This document shows positions 4,401 to 11,855 of a stretch of 64,000 bases of DNA, one piece after another. Source of the DNA: Opitutia bacterium (GTDB lineage Bacteria; Verrucomicrobiota; Verrucomicrobiia; Opitutales; Opitutaceae). The first letter of the stretch is position 1. Each line of letters begins with the position of its first letter. Location of the stretch: positions 1 through 64,000 of the forward strand of contig JACRHT010000006.1 of NCBI GenBank assembly GCA_016217545.1, in the 5' to 3' direction. The position numbers were made by a program, and so were the translations under genes. Under the pieces are notes generated by a model. It was not told the origin of the DNA. It ran no database searches and saw nothing but the letters and a program-made list of their open reading frames with translations.

Positions 4401-4772
4401 GACGAGGGTTTTCTCGATGAGCACGTAGAGATCGTGGAGGGAGACGCGGAGCGGGCCGCGGGTGAGGGCCTGCTTGGTGAGGTTGGAGGCGACTTCGCGG
4501 GTGACGTCGGCGACGAAGCGCTGGTTCTTCTCGTTGAAGATGTCCTTCTCGCCCTTCGCGAGCATGAGGTTCGCGAGGGACTTGCCGACGGTGTCGGCGA
4601 CTTCGGCGAGGTCGAAGCGCTCGGTGCCGTGCGGGCAGAGGACTTCGACTTCGGGGACGGTGACGTCCTCGCGGAGGACGTCGCGCCAGTTATAGTTGGG
4701 TTTCTGGTCCTGCGGGGTGCCCGTGAATTTCTTGAGGGCGAGGTCGGTGTGGACGGAAGAGGTGTCGCTCAT
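1422..4772 (-). CDS. nrdA: Class I ribonucleotide reductase, large subunit (R1)
   Basis: Reduces ribonucleoside diphosphates to deoxyribonucleotides together with the R2 subunit encoded just upstream. It is 1116 residues, far longer than E. coli NrdA (about 760), because of an N-terminal extension of about 370 residues. That extension reads as three ATP-cone-like regulatory modules (about 43-140, 151-245 and 278-365). Catalytic residues are visible: C508 in SSC, the NLCTE motif with N720, C722 and E724, and C737 in VCNLG. The spacing C508 to C722 equals the 214 residues between C225 and C439 of E. coli. PTATISNI supports the family. The C-terminal tail carries the redox pair CEAC. Multi-cone R1 proteins are known from Chlamydia, which fits a PVC lineage. 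Confidence 0.97.
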   Translation of the reverse strand: MSDTSSVHTDLALKKFTGTPQDQKPNYNWRDVLREDVTVPEVEVLCPHGTERFDLAEVADTVGKSLANLMLAKGEKDIFNEKNQRFVADVTREVASNLTKQALTRGPLRVSLHDLYVLIEKTLVDNNAHDVAKSLLHKRAQKLATSREQPAVAVKLIRRNNQVVPWNEAKIEIAIRKAFLSLKKDSAPAPAIARAVTARAATLKQAFLHIEEVQDMVQEELMKAGHYKVAEDYILYRAMRHASRANESAARHATDVVAAPDTAAPAADTTVPQGQNSMIVVQRADGSTYFWNGEDLKKRIEFASIGLNLCLTSDQIEAELRRSTFDNIAQGDLNNTIVLNAKTLIEKDADFAKFAGRIQLTYIYEEVLGWDIVRDGIGKLKQFHQAAFAPYIFRGIDIKRLTPRLKEYDLARLAAAIDPSADLELDFLGVQTLYDRYLIIDKTGKRSRRLETPQFFWMRVAMGLFLDEKSDREDWSIQLYSLYKSRRFCSSTPTLFNSGTLHSQLSSCYLYYVDDSLEGIMYRGIAENAQLSKWAGGLGGSWTAVRGTGAHIAGTNGESQGVIPFLKLHNDQLVAVNQGGKRKGSGCAYLESWHNDIFEFLELRRNTGDDRRRTHDMNTANWIPDLFMKRMEGRQHWTLFRSNEVADLHETYGRKFEERYTHYEKLAEEGKIQGHKVEAIELWKKMLSMLFETGHPWITFKDPCNLRSPQDHAGVIHSSNLCTEITLNTSNDETAVCNLGSVILESHLKPDGSLDHDKLRDTIRIALRALDNVIDINFYPTAAAKTSNMRHRPVGLGVMGLANALYMKGVAFASPEAVEFNDEFMEAIAYYAYEASSDLAAERGTYSSYKGSKWDRGLLPQDTLDLLEQERGVPVDVPRGGKMNWEPLRAKIAKQGMRNSNCLAIAPTATISNITNTSPCIEPYYKNLYVKSNLSGEFVVINPFLVEDLKARGLWNQEMIDALKYFDGDLADIEAVPADLKEKYRTAFDVDYKWVIDAAARRQKWIDQSQSVNLWLKTPDLKTLSHMYRHAWKTGLKTTYYLRTLGASNIEKATVSVKKEMRGATGETKAETATRDLAAAATRDAATAAKKTYTEAEKNACSIEAMRNGGTCEACQ

Positions 4773-4898
4773 GGAGATAGTGCTGCTGACGATGCGTGGG
4801 GTGACTGACGGGAGGGGTAGGAAAGTGGGGCGCGAAAAAGAAGGCAGAGCCGCCCGGGGGACGGTGCCGCCTTCGCTTTTGCGGGCGAGGCGGACTGG

Positions 4899-5984
4899 TT
4901 AAAGGTCGTCGTCGCTCGTGTTCTGGAGGGCGGACGATTTCTGGTATTCAGTAACGCGGCCCTCGAAGAAGTTCTGCTCTTTCTTGATGTCCATCATCTC
5001 GGCCAGCCAGGGGAGCGGGTTCTTGACGCCCGCGTTGAGCGGGGCAAGGCCGCAGCCTTCGAGCCGGCGGTCGGCGATGTAGTCGATGTAGGTCAGAAAT
5101 TCGTCGATGGAGAGGCCGACGGCGTTCACCGGCAGGCAATCGCGGATGAAGTCCTTCTCGAGGGCGACGGCCTCGGCCATGGTCTGGCGCAGCTCCTCCT
5201 TGAACTCGGGCGTCCAGATCTCGCGGTTTTCCTCCATGAGATCCATGAACAGATTGCGGAGGAGCTCGATGTGGTTGGACTCGTCGCGGAGGGTGTAGCG
5301 GAACATCTGGCCGATGCCGGGGAACTTGTTCTGCCGGTAGAGCGACAGGATCATGCCGAAGAGGCCGTAGAACTGGGTGCCCTCCATGCACTGGCCGAAA
5401 ACGAAGATGTTTTTCGCGAAGAGCTGCTTGTTCTTCGGGGCGTTCATGTCGAGGTCGCGGCGGAGGTCGCGCGAGACCTTGTTCACGAACTCGTTTTTGC
5501 GGACGATCGACTTCACGTCGTCGAACATCGCTTCGCACTCGTGCGGGTTCACGCCGATCGAGGCGATCATGTAGAGCAGCGAGTCAGCGTGGATGTTCTC
5601 CTCGTGGGCGTGGCGGCCGAGGACGAGCTTGAGCTCGGGCGCGGTGACGACTTCGCGGATGACGTGCTGGATGTTGTCGCCGACGATGCCCTCGGCGGCG
5701 GAGAAATAGCCGACGCCCATGCGGATGATCCAGCGTTCCTGATCACTGACGGCCTTCGCATCGCGCCACTGCTCGATGTCCTTGCCCATCGGGATGTCCT
5801 CCGGCTCCCAATGGTTGGCCTTCATCTTTTTGTAGAGATCGTAGGCCCACTGGTATTTCAGGGGGAGGAGGTTGAAGTAGGGGACTTGGCGGCCGTTGAT
5901 GACCTTTTTCCCCGCAAACGCGGCTTCGGCCTTCTCCTGATCGAGGGTGAAGGTTTTGGTGCCGACTTGGAAAGTTTTGAGCAT
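4899..5984 (-). CDS. nrdB: Class I ribonucleotide reductase, small subunit (R2), class Ic-like
   Basis: A 361-residue metallo-cofactor subunit that generates the oxidant for R1. Inferred ligands are E98, E129, H132, E201, E235 and H238, with the same spacings as the E. coli ligands (31 residues between the first two, 34 between E201 and E235). Two features are unusual. The first ligand is Glu where most R2 proteins have Asp. The residue four after H132, where the radical Tyr of class Ia/Ib sits, is L136. This pattern resembles the chlamydial class Ic R2, which uses a Mn/Fe cofactor and no Tyr radical. W59, D234 and the C-terminal Y347, candidate members of the radical-transfer path, are retained. 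It lies 126 bp upstream of nrdA, probably co-transcribed. Confidence 0.95.
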   Translation of the reverse strand: MLKTFQVGTKTFTLDQEKAEAAFAGKKVINGRQVPYFNLLPLKYQWAYDLYKKMKANHWEPEDIPMGKDIEQWRDAKAVSDQERWIIRMGVGYFSAAEGIVGDNIQHVIREVVTAPELKLVLGRHAHEENIHADSLLYMIASIGVNPHECEAMFDDVKSIVRKNEFVNKVSRDLRRDLDMNAPKNKQLFAKNIFVFGQCMEGTQFYGLFGMILSLYRQNKFPGIGQMFRYTLRDESNHIELLRNLFMDLMEENREIWTPEFKEELRQTMAEAVALEKDFIRDCLPVNAVGLSIDEFLTYIDYIADRRLEGCGLAPLNAGVKNPLPWLAEMMDIKKEQNFFEGRVTEYQKSSALQNTSDDDL

Positions 5985-6538
5985 AGCTAGTGCGTGTGTG
6001 TGACGAACGAGAAACGTGTGTGTTTTGCCATGGGCAAAACCATCTTCTGGAGGTCATAGAAGCGCGCAGGACGCCCAAGCGAACCGAAGTTGCTGGAACT
6101 TCCTCACACGTTGCTGACCACCACAGGATGTGGCTGCCCGGAACCAAGGGCACTACTAATGGTAGTGGCCTATACCCCGTCAATTTTTTCCCCGAAACAA
6201 TCGCGACATTTTTTGGTGGACAAAAATTGCACTGAAATCCGCCGTGCTGCGGTCGCGAAAATTTTCGCGCGACACGTGATTTTCAGAGGGAAAATGTCCC
6301 GCGTGCGCCGCGTCGCAAATCCGCGGAAAAAGATATTGACGCTGTTTTGCACGACGCGTGGTGCGGTTTTCAGAGGGAGTTTCTTCGTGCCGCTATGCGC
6401 GTCGATTCCGGCGCCGCGATTCTCCTCTGGCGGAGAGCGTGGTGTGGCGCGCGGCGCGCCATAGTCGCGGGTTTCTCAAGGGGTAATCCGCCCTAGCGCC
6501 GGCGAAGCCACAGCGAACCGTCGCCACGCGCGCGGGGT
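5985..6538. other. Long nrdB leader and intergenic region
   Basis: This stretch of about 550 bases has no convincing gene. It holds the presumed nrdB promoter and operator dyads near 6121-6183. It also has a perfect 16-bp palindrome, cgcgaaaattttcgcg, at 6254-6269, and two copies of ttttcagaggga at 6280-6291 and 6367-6378. The leftmost 130 bases would form an untranslated leader of nrdB. The remainder follows the stop of the TPR gene at 6539. Confidence 0.55.
6121..6183 (-). promoter_or_regulatory. Putative nrdB promoter with two operator dyads (NrdR-like geometry)
   Basis: On the minus strand TTGACG (6183-6178) is followed 16 bases later by a weak -10, CATTAG. The -10 falls within the dyad cactac-N5-gtagtg (6151-6167). 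A second dyad, ccaca-gga-tgtgg (6121-6133), is centred 32 bp away. NrdR repressors are known to bind paired boxes about three helical turns apart near nrd promoters, so the geometry fits. The bases themselves differ from the AT-rich consensus box. This is inference only. Confidence 0.35.
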
Positions 6539-7600: not shown

Positions 7601-7652
7601 CGGCAGGTTACCGGCGGTGGTGCGGGCGCAGAAGAAAAAGGCGCGGATCGGA

Positions 7653-7862
7653 CAATGAAAAAGGCGGCCGCGTTGCCGCCGCCGCCTTCGCGGGAATTCG
7701 GATCAGCGTTCGCTTAGAACTCGTAGCGGGCGCTGAAGAGGATCGACCAGCGGGTGGCGGCGGGCTCACCACGGCCGAGGGACGGCGCGAAGCCGCTGCC
7801 GGCCGTAGCTCTGGCCGTTGATGTTGGTCGAGCAGGTGCCGTTCGCGAGCGCGCTGCTAGCT
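7653..7862 (-). pseudogene. Relic of a TonB-dependent receptor 3' end, with terminator
   Basis: The last residues encoded (GSGFAPSLGRGEPAATRW, then SARYEF, stop at 7714) are nearly identical to the C-terminus of the intact receptor ending at 8517. The similarity continues past the stop into the terminator hairpin (7653-7695 against 8458-8493). Upstream of the GSGF segment the match continues (SALANGTCSTNINGQSY) but in another frame, because one extra base breaks the reading frame near 7803. By eye about four in five bases match. It is a decayed copy of about 70 codons, in the same orientation as the intact gene. The ORF starting upstream at 7947 is not meaningful. Confidence 0.85.
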
Positions 7863-8384: not shown

Positions 8385-8462
8385 ATTCTTCTCTCACTAT
8401 TGGCCCATTTTTTAGTTCGGTGACTTTGTAGTTACGTAATCTTGTTTGTTGGTGGGGCAATG

Positions 8463-8493
8463 AAAAAGGCGGCTGCGTTGCCGCAGCCGCCTT
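8463..8493 (-). terminator. Intrinsic terminator of the TonB-dependent receptor gene
   Basis: A perfect 12-bp stem (aaggcggctgcg / cgcagccgcctt) with the 4-base loop ttgc, followed on the minus strand by a run of Ts. It lies 24 bases after the receptor stop codon. An imperfect copy is at 7656-7691. Confidence 0.85.
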
Positions 8494-8516
8494 CGCGGAA
8501 ATCAGTTCAAGTGGGC

Positions 8517-11500
8517 TTAGAACTCGTAACGAGCGCTGAAGAGGACAGACCAGCGGGTCGCGGCGGGTTCACCACGGCCGAGCGAGGGAGCGAAGCCGGA
8601 ACCGGTGTAACTCTTGCCATCGACGGTGGTGGAGTAAGTGCCGTTCGCGAGCGCCGTGCTGACGTTTGAGTAGACGTATTGCTTCGCGACTGTGTCGTAG
8701 GTGGCCGCGACCATCGATTCCTTCTTCGTGAAGAATTGGTTCGAGCCGCGAATGATGCCCCACTTGCTGTTCAGGAGGTTGCCGACGTTGAGGATGTCGG
8801 CGCCGAGGACGAGCTTGTGGCGCCAGAAGGGCAGTTTGACCTCCTGCTTGACGCTGAAGTCGAACTGGTTGACCCACGGGTAGCGGTTGGAGTTAGCGCC
8901 GGAGTAGGTTCCTTCCTGCAGACCAAAGCGATCGACGATCTTGAAGAAGTTCTCCTGGTCGGTGGTGCTGGCGAAGCGGACCTTTGAGTCGCCGCCACGG
9001 ACGGGGATGTAGACGAGGTCGTTCTGCGTCTGGCTGTCGCCGTTGAGGTCGCCGGAGTAGACGAAGCTGAACGGATAACCGGAGCGGCCTTCATAGAGCA
9101 GCGAGAACGTCGTGGGGTTGTTCTTCACGAATTCGAAGTCCTTGGTGACATTGATGAGGATGCGGTCGCGGATCTCGAGTTCGGCGGTGTGGAGTTCTTG
9201 GGCGTTGATGTTGAAACCGACGCGATTGTTCCAGTTGGACGCGGCGACGGAGGAGGTGCCGAAGGTCACTTCCTTGGCATTCGTGAGGACGTAGGACGCC
9301 TTCCAATACCAACCGTCCTTCGTGCGCGGGCGCTCGAGGGAGACGATGTAGGATTGGGATTCACCCTTGTCGGCGTTCGTCAGCTTGATGATGCGGGCGC
9401 CGGAAGCGGTGGAGTTGACGAAGGCGGTGCTGACCACCTTGGTGCCGGTCGCGATGCCGGAGGTGTTGGCGCCAGACCAATACAGCGTGCGGCCGTCGGG
9501 GCCGGTGCCGGTCGCGGCGATGTTCACGTTCTGGTAGAACACATCCTTGTTGGTCTTGGTGAACTCGATTTCGGCGGTGGCCTTCAGGCCGAGGATGCCG
9601 AGTTCGCGTTCAACGGCGAGGTTGGACTTCCATTTCGAGGGCAGTTCGAAGTTGGGGTCCATGAAGTTGACGGTCATGACGGAGCCGAGGGCGCCGGAGG
9701 CGACCTGCTTCTTCGGGTCGGCCGAGATGATGGGCGCCAGCGGGCTGCCGGTGATGCTCGTGCCGGCGGTCCACGACTTGTAGTTCATGCCGGTGTTCGA
9801 GTAGCTGTTCGAGATCCACACGCGGGGAGCGCGCCCGTAGAAGAGGCCGACGCCGCCGCGGATGGTCGTCTTCTTGCCGCCGAAATCCGGCTGCCAGTTG
9901 AAGCCGATGCGCGGTTGGATGATCTTCTTGCCGTCGTAGGTGGAGTCGTTGCGATACCCGAAGATGCTCTCGAAGTTTTGGATGCCCGGGGTGACGGCAT
10001 CGGTGTCGACGTTGTTGTAGGGAACAGCGTCCGGGAGAAGTGCGACATCGATGCGCGCGCCGACATCGATTTTGAGTTGGGGCGTCACGCGCCAGGCATC
10101 GTTGAGGAAGAAGCCGGCGTTGGCCTCGCTGAAGCGAGCGGCGGGTTCAACTCCGTCGATGATCTGGTTGTAGGCGTAGGAGAAATAGTTCAGCGTGCCG
10201 TTGTTCAGGGCTGCGAGGCTTTGGAACTGCGGGAGGCCGTTACCGGAGGAGCCGTTGCTGAACGTGTAGGAGCCATTCGTGTTCTGGACGAACAGGTTGT
10301 AGATGTCGGCCGTGTCGTATTGGATGCCGCTTTGGAGCGTGTGATTGTCGGCGAGTTCGTAGGAGGCGAAGGCCTCGATCGTGTCGGTCTTGACGTCGAG
10401 CACGTTCGATTGGCTGCTGCTCTCGGTGCCGAAAGTCACGAAGGCCGTGTTGCTGGAGCCGGCGACCGGGATGTTACGGATCGTGACGTAGGGCTGCTTC
10501 GGGTCAGCGGTGCCGCGCTCGGAGTGATACTTGGAGCGGGAAACGGAGAGTTCGGTATTCAGCTTGTTGGACCAACGGCTGATCAGCTGGCCGATGTAGG
10601 AGGTGTTTGAGATGTTCTGTTGATACCAAGCGGTATCGAAGGAGAAGTTGTTCTCGGAAATACCGGAACCGAAGTTGGGGAACGTCGGGCGGCTGGATTC
10701 CACCTTGTTGTAGCGGAAGGTCGCGCGATGGTCGGCATTGATCTGCCAGTCGAGCTTGGCGAGGAGGTTCTCGTCCGTGAGCTTGTTGGCCGACGGCGGA
10801 GTCGCACTGCCGGTGGTGAAGCCGAGGGTCTTGGCCGTGTCAGTGATGGTCTTGACGGTCGCGTCGTCGAGGCGGGTGACCGGTGAAGGGGCGACGCGGT
10901 TTTCGTCGACCTTCTCATAAGCGGCGTAGAAGAACAGTTTCTTGGGGATGATGGGGCCGCCCAGCGTGATGCCCTTGGTCTCCTCGCTGAAGTTGGTCAG
11001 CGGGCGGGGAATCTCGTCGACGGTGTCGGCGGCGAGTTGCTGGCCGAAGAGCGTGCGGCCGCGGTAGGTGTAGTAGGCGGAACCCTTGAACTGGTTGGTG
11101 CCGCTCTTGGTGATCGCGTTGATCTGGGCGCCGACGAAGCCGGCGTTGCGGGAATAGTAGGGCGAGGTGTTGATCGCGAGCGCTTCGAGGGAGTCGAGCG
11201 GGATGACGTTGCGCTCGGCGGCCGTGTTGTTGGCGTTGAGGCCGAACGGGTCGGAGGCATTCACGCCGTCCACTTGGATCGAGTTGTAGCGGTTGCTCGT
11301 GCCGGCGACGGAGATGGCGCGGTCGGAGGGATCGCGATTGTAGCTGATGCGCGGATCGAGGCGCGCGAGGGAGTTGATCGAGCGGTCGCCGCTCGGGAGA
11401 TTGCGAATGTCCTTGTTGTTGAGGTAGGAGCCGGAGCCCGTCTGGTTCGGGTCGAAAAGCGAGTCGGTGGCCGAGGCGGTGACCTGGAAGGCCTCAAGCT

Positions 11501-11855
11501 GCACGACTTCAGCGCGCATCTTCAGGTTCACGTCGGCACCGGTGTCGATGTCGAGGTAGACTTCGCGGACTTCCGTCTTGGCGAAAGTCGGAGCGACGGA
11601 AGTGACGGTGTAGGGGCCGCCCGGACGGAGGCCGCGGAGCACATAGGTGCCGTCCGCGCGCGACGTGGCCGTGTAACTCGAGCCCGTGGGCTCGTGGGTG
11701 ACGGTGATCGCCGCATTGGCGACGGGTTGGCCTTGGTCGTTTTGAACGGTGCCGTTCAACGACGAAGTCGTGATGACCTGGGCGAACGCCGAAGCCGTGA
11801 TCAGGCTAAGGGCCGTCGCCGCAAGCGCGATAAACCTAACGAACGATTTATGCAT
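8517..11855 (-). CDS. TonB-dependent receptor with carboxypeptidase-regulatory-like domain
   Basis: An outer-membrane receptor of 1112 residues. It has a signal peptide (1-25, ending ASAFA), a carboxypeptidase-regulatory-like beta-sandwich (about 31-115: SLNGTVQNDQGQPVANAAIT, then DGTYVLRGL), a plug domain (about 150-260) and a long beta-barrel ending in an aromatic C-terminal strand (SARYEF). Such receptors import large or scarce substrates using TonB energy. No TonB/ExbBD or SusD-like partner is nearby, so the substrate cannot be guessed. A TTGACT at 11947-11942 could be a -35 element, but its -10 is weak. A relic copy of the 3' end lies at 7653-7862. Confidence 0.93.
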   Translation of the reverse strand: MHKSFVRFIALAATALSLITASAFAQVITTSSLNGTVQNDQGQPVANAAITVTHEPTGSSYTATSRADGTYVLRGLRPGGPYTVTSVAPTFAKTEVREVYLDIDTGADVNLKMRAEVVQLEAFQVTASATDSLFDPNQTGSGSYLNNKDIRNLPSGDRSINSLARLDPRISYNRDPSDRAISVAGTSNRYNSIQVDGVNASDPFGLNANNTAAERNVIPLDSLEALAINTSPYYSRNAGFVGAQINAITKSGTNQFKGSAYYTYRGRTLFGQQLAADTVDEIPRPLTNFSEETKGITLGGPIIPKKLFFYAAYEKVDENRVAPSPVTRLDDATVKTITDTAKTLGFTTGSATPPSANKLTDENLLAKLDWQINADHRATFRYNKVESSRPTFPNFGSGISENNFSFDTAWYQQNISNTSYIGQLISRWSNKLNTELSVSRSKYHSERGTADPKQPYVTIRNIPVAGSSNTAFVTFGTESSSQSNVLDVKTDTIEAFASYELADNHTLQSGIQYDTADIYNLFVQNTNGSYTFSNGSSGNGLPQFQSLAALNNGTLNYFSYAYNQIIDGVEPAARFSEANAGFFLNDAWRVTPQLKIDVGARIDVALLPDAVPYNNVDTDAVTPGIQNFESIFGYRNDSTYDGKKIIQPRIGFNWQPDFGGKKTTIRGGVGLFYGRAPRVWISNSYSNTGMNYKSWTAGTSITGSPLAPIISADPKKQVASGALGSVMTVNFMDPNFELPSKWKSNLAVERELGILGLKATAEIEFTKTNKDVFYQNVNIAATGTGPDGRTLYWSGANTSGIATGTKVVSTAFVNSTASGARIIKLTNADKGESQSYIVSLERPRTKDGWYWKASYVLTNAKEVTFGTSSVAASNWNNRVGFNINAQELHTAELEIRDRILINVTKDFEFVKNNPTTFSLLYEGRSGYPFSFVYSGDLNGDSQTQNDLVYIPVRGGDSKVRFASTTDQENFFKIVDRFGLQEGTYSGANSNRYPWVNQFDFSVKQEVKLPFWRHKLVLGADILNVGNLLNSKWGIIRGSNQFFTKKESMVAATYDTVAKQYVYSNVSTALANGTYSTTVDGKSYTGSGFAPSLGRGEPAATRWSVLFSARYEF

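Follow-up and report, generated by a model that had tools for sequence, protein, structure and literature searches.

The nrdB gene of an Opitutia bacterium (Opitutaceae; Verrucomicrobiota) encodes a ribonucleotide reductase R2 subunit with leucine at the position where class Ia and Ib proteins carry their radical tyrosine, and this raises the question of how its enzyme could work and whether the host has any other. The stretch of DNA analysed, referred to here as the window, is the first 64,000 nucleotides of contig JACRHT010000006.1 (assembly GCA_016217545.1). The nrdB product matches the Pfam family Ribonuc_red_sm at 227.9 bits (cut-off 33.6) and NCBIfam PRK07209 at 330.9 bits (cut-off 309). 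The closest solved proteins by sequence are the R2c entries of Chlamydia trachomatis, with E values from 3e-80 (1syy) to 4.2e-80, followed by 6y2n at 7.1e-69 and then by the next match at 5.2e-37. R2lox is not the family to which it belongs, as the best R2lox model scores 51.1 bits against a cut-off of 194 and an R1 gene lies adjacent to nrdB.

The first-pass annotation had placed Leu136 at the radical-tyrosine position, had named Glu98, 31 residues ahead of Glu129, as the first metal ligand in place of the common aspartate, and had recognised in this the class Ic pattern. All three points were borne out. L136 aligns with C. trachomatis F127 and there is no Tyr at the site; E98 aligns with C. 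trachomatis E89 and the spacing to E129 is 31 residues; and the class Ic pattern is seen in the ligands, in the coupling of residues 98 and 136 described below, and in C. trachomatis R2c being the closest match. That protein (1syy, 4d8f, 4m1i and the F127Y variant 2ani) resembles the window R2 in its six ligands with Glu first, its redox-inert radical site and its W51, Y129, Y222 and Y338, all of which have counterparts here, and it is the best match in both sequence and fold, but it differs in having Phe where the window R2 has Leu and is only 38-41% identical. The ligand and relay residues are those which we take to be assigned in C. trachomatis R2c, Y230/Y222 presumably having an electron-relay role and Y347/Y338 a role in radical transfer. 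Their codons are listed in Table 1 with the other features of the locus, using an alignment of 6 rows (A1) and one of 50 rows (A2); W59 aligns with C. trachomatis W51, and the counterparts of W51, Y222 and Y338 are invariant in A1.

Four Glu carboxylates (E98, E129, E201 and E235) and two His (H132 and H238) therefore stand where class Ic has them, L136 puts a redox-inert side chain at the radical-Tyr site, and W59, Y230, Y347 and the adjacent NrdA provide the radical-transfer residues, the C-terminal Tyr and the class I R1 partner. Leu at the radical site and Glu as first ligand separate the protein from class Ia and Ib, and L136 also separates it from class Id, for which the available part of a 2021 review gives a Glu first ligand with Tyr at the radical position (PMC8463856). 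Comparison of the residues supports a class Ic pattern for the window R2, which lacks the radical Tyr and has Glu as its first ligand.

Table 1. Features of the nrdBA locus and its upstream region (positions in the window)
Feature	Position	Strand	Remarks
nrdA, R1 (alpha) subunit, 1116 aa	1422..4772	minus	126 bases downstream of nrdB, same strand
nrdB, R2 (beta) subunit, Leu-type Tyr-less class I	4899..5984	minus	361 aa + stop, intact ORF
Y347 codon, C-terminal Tyr (C. trachomatis Y338)	4944..4946	minus	alignment; invariant in A1 and A2
H238 codon, metal ligand	5271..5273	minus	C. trachomatis alignment; invariant in A1 and A2
E235 codon, metal ligand	5280..5282	minus	C. trachomatis alignment; invariant in A1 and A2
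Y230 codon, counterpart of C. trachomatis Y222	5295..5297	minus	alignment
E201 codon, metal ligand	5382..5384	minus	C. trachomatis alignment; invariant in A1 and A2
Y138 codon (C. trachomatis Y129)	5571..5573	minus	Tyr in 155/162, His in 7/162 rows at >=50% identity
L136 codon (CTG), position of class Ia/Ib radical Tyr and C. trachomatis F127	5577..5579	minus	alignments
H132 codon, metal ligand	5589..5591	minus	C. trachomatis alignment; invariant in A1 and A2
E129 codon, metal ligand	5598..5600	minus	C. trachomatis alignment; invariant in A1 and A2
E98 codon, first metal ligand (Asp in class Ia/Ib)	5691..5693	minus	aligns with C. trachomatis E89; Glu in 162/162 rows at >=50% identity
NrdR-box-like palindrome, second of pair, 2 mismatches	6120..6131	minus	within family-conserved segment
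NrdR-box-like palindrome, 1 mismatch to ACWANNNNTWGT	6152..6163	minus	32 bp from next box
Perfect ACWANNNNTWGT match overlapping first box	6155-6166	minus	35 bp from second box

An AlphaFold2 model of the window R2, built with 50 sequences, has a mean pLDDT of 86.6; its last 32 residues are below 50, as expected of a tail that would dock to R1. The best PDB fold matches are again C. trachomatis R2c (Z 43.9-43.2, rmsd 2.3-2.7 over 316-327 residues), with further matches to 6y2n (Z 42.9, rmsd 1.4 over 306) and 7ail (Z 37.9, rmsd 2.1 over 306), where rows within 1 of each other are counted as tied. In residues 2-24 the model shows a beta hairpin and a short helix ahead of the R2 core.

The extent of Leu136 was determined in two sets of relatives. 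R2 matches were present in 88 of 120 genomes of a family sample and in 113 of 387 of a phylum sample; residue 136 was read only in the loci fetched from these matches, and four partial matches (G074, G102, G116 and G022) were left out. The 135 aligned rows (the window, its own second copy, three solved proteins and 130 others) have at residues 98/136 E/L in 112 cases, E/F in 13, D/Y in 9 and Q/L in 1. A scan of named genomes yielded 81 R2 rows from the best 80 loci, which together with the window and three references gave 85 rows: 53 E/L, 27 E/F, 4 D/Y and 1 Q/L. When pooled there are 215 rows, which are distinct sequences as trimmed and not species, the two sources overlapping in organisms (e.g. 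G460 and L174), and these comprise 163 E/L, 38 E/F, 12 D/Y and 2 Q/L, the last being one degenerate paralogue counted twice. No E/Y, D/L or D/F was found among the 215, so the two residues are coupled. E98 and L136 are shared by every one of the 162 rows that are 50% or more identical to the window R2, the window itself and two paralogues among them; this group is set by overall identity and so is independent of residues 98/136. The 53 rows below 50% comprise 38 E/F, 12 D/Y, 2 Q/L and 1 E/L. Because of this conservation the Leu is not due to chance, and a strain-specific mutation or a sequencing error is ruled out. As read from these sequences, the pairing of Glu98 with loss of the Tyr is the class Ic pattern.

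Judging by record titles, carriers of the Leu type include Geminisphaera, Pelagicoccus, Cerasicoccus, Haloferula, Prosthecobacter (MAGs) and Persicirhabdus. Leu-type R2 genes are also present in MAGs labelled Armatimonadota (two Fimbriimonadaceae), UBP7, Chlamydiae and Planctomycetaceae (L154, L158, L182, L157, L181 and L149), which suggests either transfer or mislabelled bins. Some family members carry extra R2 genes of the Asp/Tyr type (L047-L050, in G099, G005 and G046), and in G046 no other type appears among the matches when E is limited to 1e-10. In two cases, G074:C32:10628-11601 (a genome of the same genus) and L307:4468-5591 (G522), the R2 is split into two overlapping frames by frameshifts or assembly errors.

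A plasmid or virus origin was rejected, as no match of at least 60% identity was found in phages (852 records) or plasmids (279 records). The best IMG/VR match to the window R2 is 42% identical and has Phe at the site. An alignment of 83 IMG/VR rows, including the window and three references, contains 37 D/Y, 26 E/I (L226, L228, L230-L241, L243-L251, L262, L286 and L293), 7 E/V (L220, L221, L253, L257, L258, L260 and L261), 7 E/F, 1 E/Y, 1 E/L, which is the window itself, and 4 with a gap; there is no Leu at the radical site in the 79 rows from IMG/VR matches, and the viral rows form a clade distinct from the Leu type. The one viral row with a Glu first ligand and Tyr at the radical site (L272) means that the pairing of Glu98 with Tyr loss is not universal in R2. 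These rows presumably belong to the same group as the viral 'Ic-like' R2 described in the available part of PMC12918982, which resembles the window R2 in its Glu first ligand and aliphatic radical site (Ile or Val there).

Whether the host could obtain deoxynucleotides by another route was addressed by searching its whole genome, which consists of 17 contigs and is 99.88% complete. A second canonical nrdB elsewhere in the genome had been set beforehand as grounds for abandoning the class Ic reading, and none was found: the only PF00268 match is the window gene (the same search was positive in 7 of 14 control genomes). Similarly, the one class I/II barrel (PF02867) is that of the adjacent R1, with no second in the genome (11 of 14 controls positive), and there is no match for class III PF13597 (6 of 14 positive) or for NrdI PF07972 (3 of 14 positive). 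At the sensitivity of these searches a second canonical nrdB, a class II and a class III reductase are thus all rejected and no backup for nrdB is detected, and in a genome of this completeness the enzyme should therefore have to work without a radical Tyr. The absence of NrdI fits a system other than class Ib. The nrdAB operon would, by the same token, be essential to the host.

The searches also bear on whether the window R2 could be an inactive protein or pseudogene, the dNTPs coming from another reductase. Degenerate second R2 copies do occur in some relatives (see below), and nothing of the kind points to the window gene itself; its ligands are intact, it is conserved over the phylum, an intact R1 lies beside it and no other reductase was found. 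This explanation is largely refuted at the sensitivity of the searches and is considered extremely improbable.

From the sequence evidence, nrdB probably encodes the functional subunit that generates the radical for the host's only detected reductase, an aerobic class I enzyme of the Tyr-less (class Ic) kind. Its oxidant would very probably be metal-centred, and the metal pair is likely, with rather less confidence, to be Mn/Fe and not another combination. Two metal ions would be coordinated by the four Glu and two His, site 1 most likely being occupied by Mn and site 2 by Fe, and this pair would be oxidised by oxygen or peroxide. The oxidising equivalent would then be stored by high-valent metal, not by a tyrosyl radical, and be passed via W59, Y347 and the Tyr pair of R1 to the catalytic Cys of R1, while L136 would act as a redox-inert space filler beside site 1. 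In class Ic the cofactor is a heterodinuclear Mn/Fe pair, which is Mn(IV)/Fe(III) in the active enzyme. An identity of no more than 38-41% to the characterised Mn/Fe protein, the nearly fixed differences from the Phe rows near the ligands and a tree that does not firmly unite the two types (see below) speak against this reading. The R1 carries NLCTEI at residue 720, which we take to be the catalytic Cys motif, and TYYLRT at residue 1039, presumably the radical-transfer pair.

Two residues after L136 there is a tyrosine, Y138, which is retained in most rows of at least 50% identity (Table 1), and if this residue carried the radical the enzyme would be a class Ia-like tyrosyl type with a shifted site. 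This is very unlikely, as its counterpart Y129 is present in C. trachomatis R2c, which uses a metal oxidant according to the available part of the 2021 review (PMC8463856), and as residue 138 is His in one branch of the Leu clade which keeps all of the ligands (L179, L180, L181, L183 and L118).

Both the Leu and the Phe type are represented in Verrucomicrobiota, the Phe type there (Methylacidiphilaceae and others) being 40-43% identical to the window R2. In a tree of 61 rows, from which five long or paralogous rows of 66 were left out, the 25 Leu rows from Verrucomicrobiota and some Armatimonadota MAGs form one clade with support of 100/100 and a stem of 2.23 changes per column. Sixteen Phe rows (Chlamydiota, Planctomycetota, some Verrucomicrobiota and others) form a clade with L200 (98/97), and Phe occurs in two further places of the tree. 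The row L200, from a single Thermomicrobiales MAG, represents a separate change from Phe to Leu within the chlamydial Phe clade and has the gene order of the Phe type; because it lies inside that clade, one origin of all Leu rows is rejected (AU p 0.0036). The tree does not show the Leu clade as sister to the chlamydial Phe clade, but such a relationship is not rejected (AU p 0.186, for a set that was named after the tree was inspected), and the test marginally rejects one common origin for every Tyr-less row (AU p 0.043); the tree output warns of long branches. Descent of the Leu type from the chlamydial type is therefore at most weakly indicated, being neither shown nor excluded by the tree.

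The two types also differ in gene order. Among the best 80 named loci, the Leu type has nrdB before nrdA in 43 and nrdA before nrdB in 1, which is L200, with the partner not in reach in 7; the Phe type has nrdA before nrdB in 23, with 2 not in reach; the D/Y type has nrdA before nrdB in 3; and Persicirhabdus, counted under its Q/L paralogue, has nrdB before nrdA in 1. The window has nrdB first, unlike C. trachomatis, in which nrdA precedes nrdB (PMC3019208, in the part available), and alpha lies upstream of beta in most class I operons according to the accessible text of PMC9669993.

Near the ligands there are almost fixed differences between the 160 Leu rows and the 38 Phe rows, groups that were defined by residues 98/136 and so can be compared at other positions only; three E/L rows, two paralogues and L200, are left out of the 160. 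Position 203 is Thr in 160/160 Leu rows and Ile in 35/38 Phe rows, 204 is Gln in 160/160 and Phe in 37/38, 134 is Asp in 160/160 and His in 32/38, 125 is His in 155/160 and Gln in 38/38, and 127 is His in 153/160 and Phe in 31/38. The C. trachomatis residues I195/F196, Q116/F118 and H125 correspond to T203/Q204, H125/H127 and D134 of the window R2. Such differences, as they appear in sequence, could change the choice of metal.

The Leu lineage might accordingly be a separately evolved Tyr-less R2, the cofactor of which is not the chlamydial Mn/Fe but, for example, high-valent Mn2 or Fe2. The long, fully supported stem, the opposite gene order, the differences near the ligands and the marginal rejection of a single Tyr-less origin all speak for this. 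Nevertheless, the ligand set and the relay residues equal those of C. trachomatis R2c, a sister relationship with the chlamydial clade is not rejected, and long branches may mislead the tree, and a separate cofactor is judged to be unlikely in comparison with the class Ic reading of the window R2.

Leucine at the radical site is itself documented variation and is not new in print. For the occurrence of Leu, Ile and Val in R2c a 2013 paper cites Hogbom 2010, and a 2019 paper cites Lundin 2009 for the NrdBz assignment. In the portions of these papers available, the former (PMC3824934) documents R2c proteins with Phe replaced by Leu, Ile or Val, and the latter (PMC6370689) places in class Ic those NrdBz proteins whose Tyr site is occupied by Phe, Leu or Val, so that the RNRdb group NrdBzc includes Leu by its printed definition. 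The suggestion of the first-pass annotation that Leu would newly widen the range of tolerated side chains does not hold in the light of these two papers. As far as the available text of other papers goes, the site holds Phe or Leu in the Ic references and Ile or Val in a viral Ic-like group of PMC12918982, many NrdAz/NrdAq partners carry a redox-inert residue in PMC9669993, and the class O (cyanophage) subunits of PMC9531940 have Phe or Leu, much like class Ic. The class O ferritin-like subunit, compared with the window R2 by description only, is alike in its redox-inert Phe or Leu, and its C-terminus is described as unusually short (PMC9531940). Other sources are narrower: the main text of the 2009 RNRdb paper (PMC2795772) lacks the terms leucine, Leu, NrdBz and Verrucomicrob, the accessible part of PMC8463856 gives class Ic as Phe/Glu only and lacks 'leu' and 'leucine', and that of PMC4390871 gives Phe alone for Ic.

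In the open-access literature no paper was found that brings together Verrucomicrobia, ribonucleotide reductase and nrdB, and the accessible parts of that literature held no report of a purified Leu-type R2 or of its metal, EPR or activity; no studied member of the Leu lineage was found there. The present analysis adds two points: a Leu-type R2 belongs to the sole reductase detected in its host, and Leu marks without exception a deep lineage with a gene organisation of its own. In the literature surveyed, chemical study of Tyr-less reductases concerns the Phe type only. A clade which is invariantly aliphatic makes it testable whether an aromatic ring by site 1 matters for metal choice, cofactor lifetime and resistance to radical scavengers, and one genome appears to depend on the Leu-type enzyme alone.

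Some relatives carry a second R2 directly before a normal Leu-type R2. This was seen in Persicirhabdus sediminis (L174/G460) and in eight genomes of another genus in its family (g235), the nine genomes being G493, G505, G524, G479, G486, G511, G499, G518 and G460 and the second-R2 rows L299-L306 and L311. In all nine second R2s E98 is changed to Gln, H132 and H238 to Arg and E235 to Val or Ile, and the C-terminal Tyr position is also changed. A further diverged second R2 is present in G522 and G490 (L307 and L308), and the order second R2, R2, R1 is found in 11 of 11 genomes, the normal R2 of G522 being the one split over two frames. The nine degenerate copies are 58-88% identical to each other, and their dN/dS is approximately 0.10 (10 of 36 pairs with finite dS) compared with 0.04 in the normal copies (15 of 36), values which are rough because dS is near saturation. 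Selection apparently keeps the second gene, as far as these rough ratios indicate. A model of the second R2 keeps the R2 fold (pLDDT 88.0; best match C. trachomatis R2, Z 37.7, rmsd 2.7 over 318), but it will have been pulled towards that fold because its alignment consisted mostly of normal R2s (30 of 31 rows).

The loss of ligands in these copies is reminiscent of yeast Rnr4, which we take to have lost its metal ligands, and the tandem ligand-less R2 may be a candidate bacterial beta-prime subunit; it would then parallel, within the Leu clade, the beta-prime subunit of yeast. A beta-prime subunit is mentioned in the available part of PMC3824934, and no bacterial case was found in the titles and abstract openings of the literature surveyed. 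The ligand-less R2 may be more novel than Leu136. A more far-reaching proposal combines the two observations: the Leu-type R2s would be an independent Tyr-less subclass with its own metal pair or activation route, and in the branch of Persicirhabdus and relatives the catalytic R2 would pair with its tandem paralogue, which lacks metal, as a beta/beta-prime heterodimer, much as Rnr2/Rnr4 do in yeast. This proposal is doubtful on present sequence evidence. A different tandem second R2 is present in L032 and L033 (G045 and G076), where it lies between R2 and R1 and is 56% identical to the window R2; it keeps the six ligands and L136, with Y138 changed to His and Y230 to Asn.

The R1 partner had been annotated at first pass as apparently having three ATP-cones in the manner of Chlamydia, and of these one is secure. 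The cone at residues 156-241 passes Pfam, ahead of it lies a segment with a weak resemblance to a cone (E 0.061), and for the third segment Pfam gives nothing at E up to 1. Profile comparison of the N-terminal segments gave 62.6% for the first with the second, 2.9% for the first with the third and 0.1% for the second with the third. From residue 276 onwards R1 is collinear with residue 2 onwards of class Ia NrdA chains; these chains are, we assume, E. coli NrdA, whose N-terminus is presumably an ATP-cone. The NrdA of C. trachomatis has three ATP-cones according to the part of PMC9669993 available.

Upstream of nrdB there is a pair of palindromes resembling NrdR boxes, and a perfect box overlaps the first of them (Table 1), the consensus used for scoring being one which we take to represent the NrdR box. 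Perfect boxes were found in 73 of 161 upstream regions, which include a few paralogue and Tyr-type rows, whereas 20 mononucleotide shuffles averaged 3.7 (range 1-7); this excess is not a probability because many of the 161 regions are related. The commonest spacing from a perfect box to another with at most two mismatches was 32 (34 cases; none in a single shuffle per region). An nrdR gene is present on contig C11 of the same genome (TIGR00244, 163.3 bits, above cut-off), and together with the boxes it fits an ordinarily regulated nrd operon. The leader at 6079-6166 on the minus strand is conserved and contains, besides the two boxes 32 bp apart, another conserved stretch that carries a second short repeat of approximately AAGTT...AACTT. 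An RNA element was rejected as the source of the conserved palindrome, which the NrdR-like boxes explain better: Rfam gave no match at E up to 1 in 4700-6500 and none in the whole window at gathering scores, and the consensus RNA fold of the nrdB leader from 47 sequences has only four pairs at -4.6 kcal/mol. Further upstream, a large gene occupies 8517-11855; its 3' end, together with the DNA that follows, is repeated approximately 803 bases away (7650-7858 and 8455-8660) with 80-92% identity, perhaps because a neighbouring gene was once duplicated or lost.
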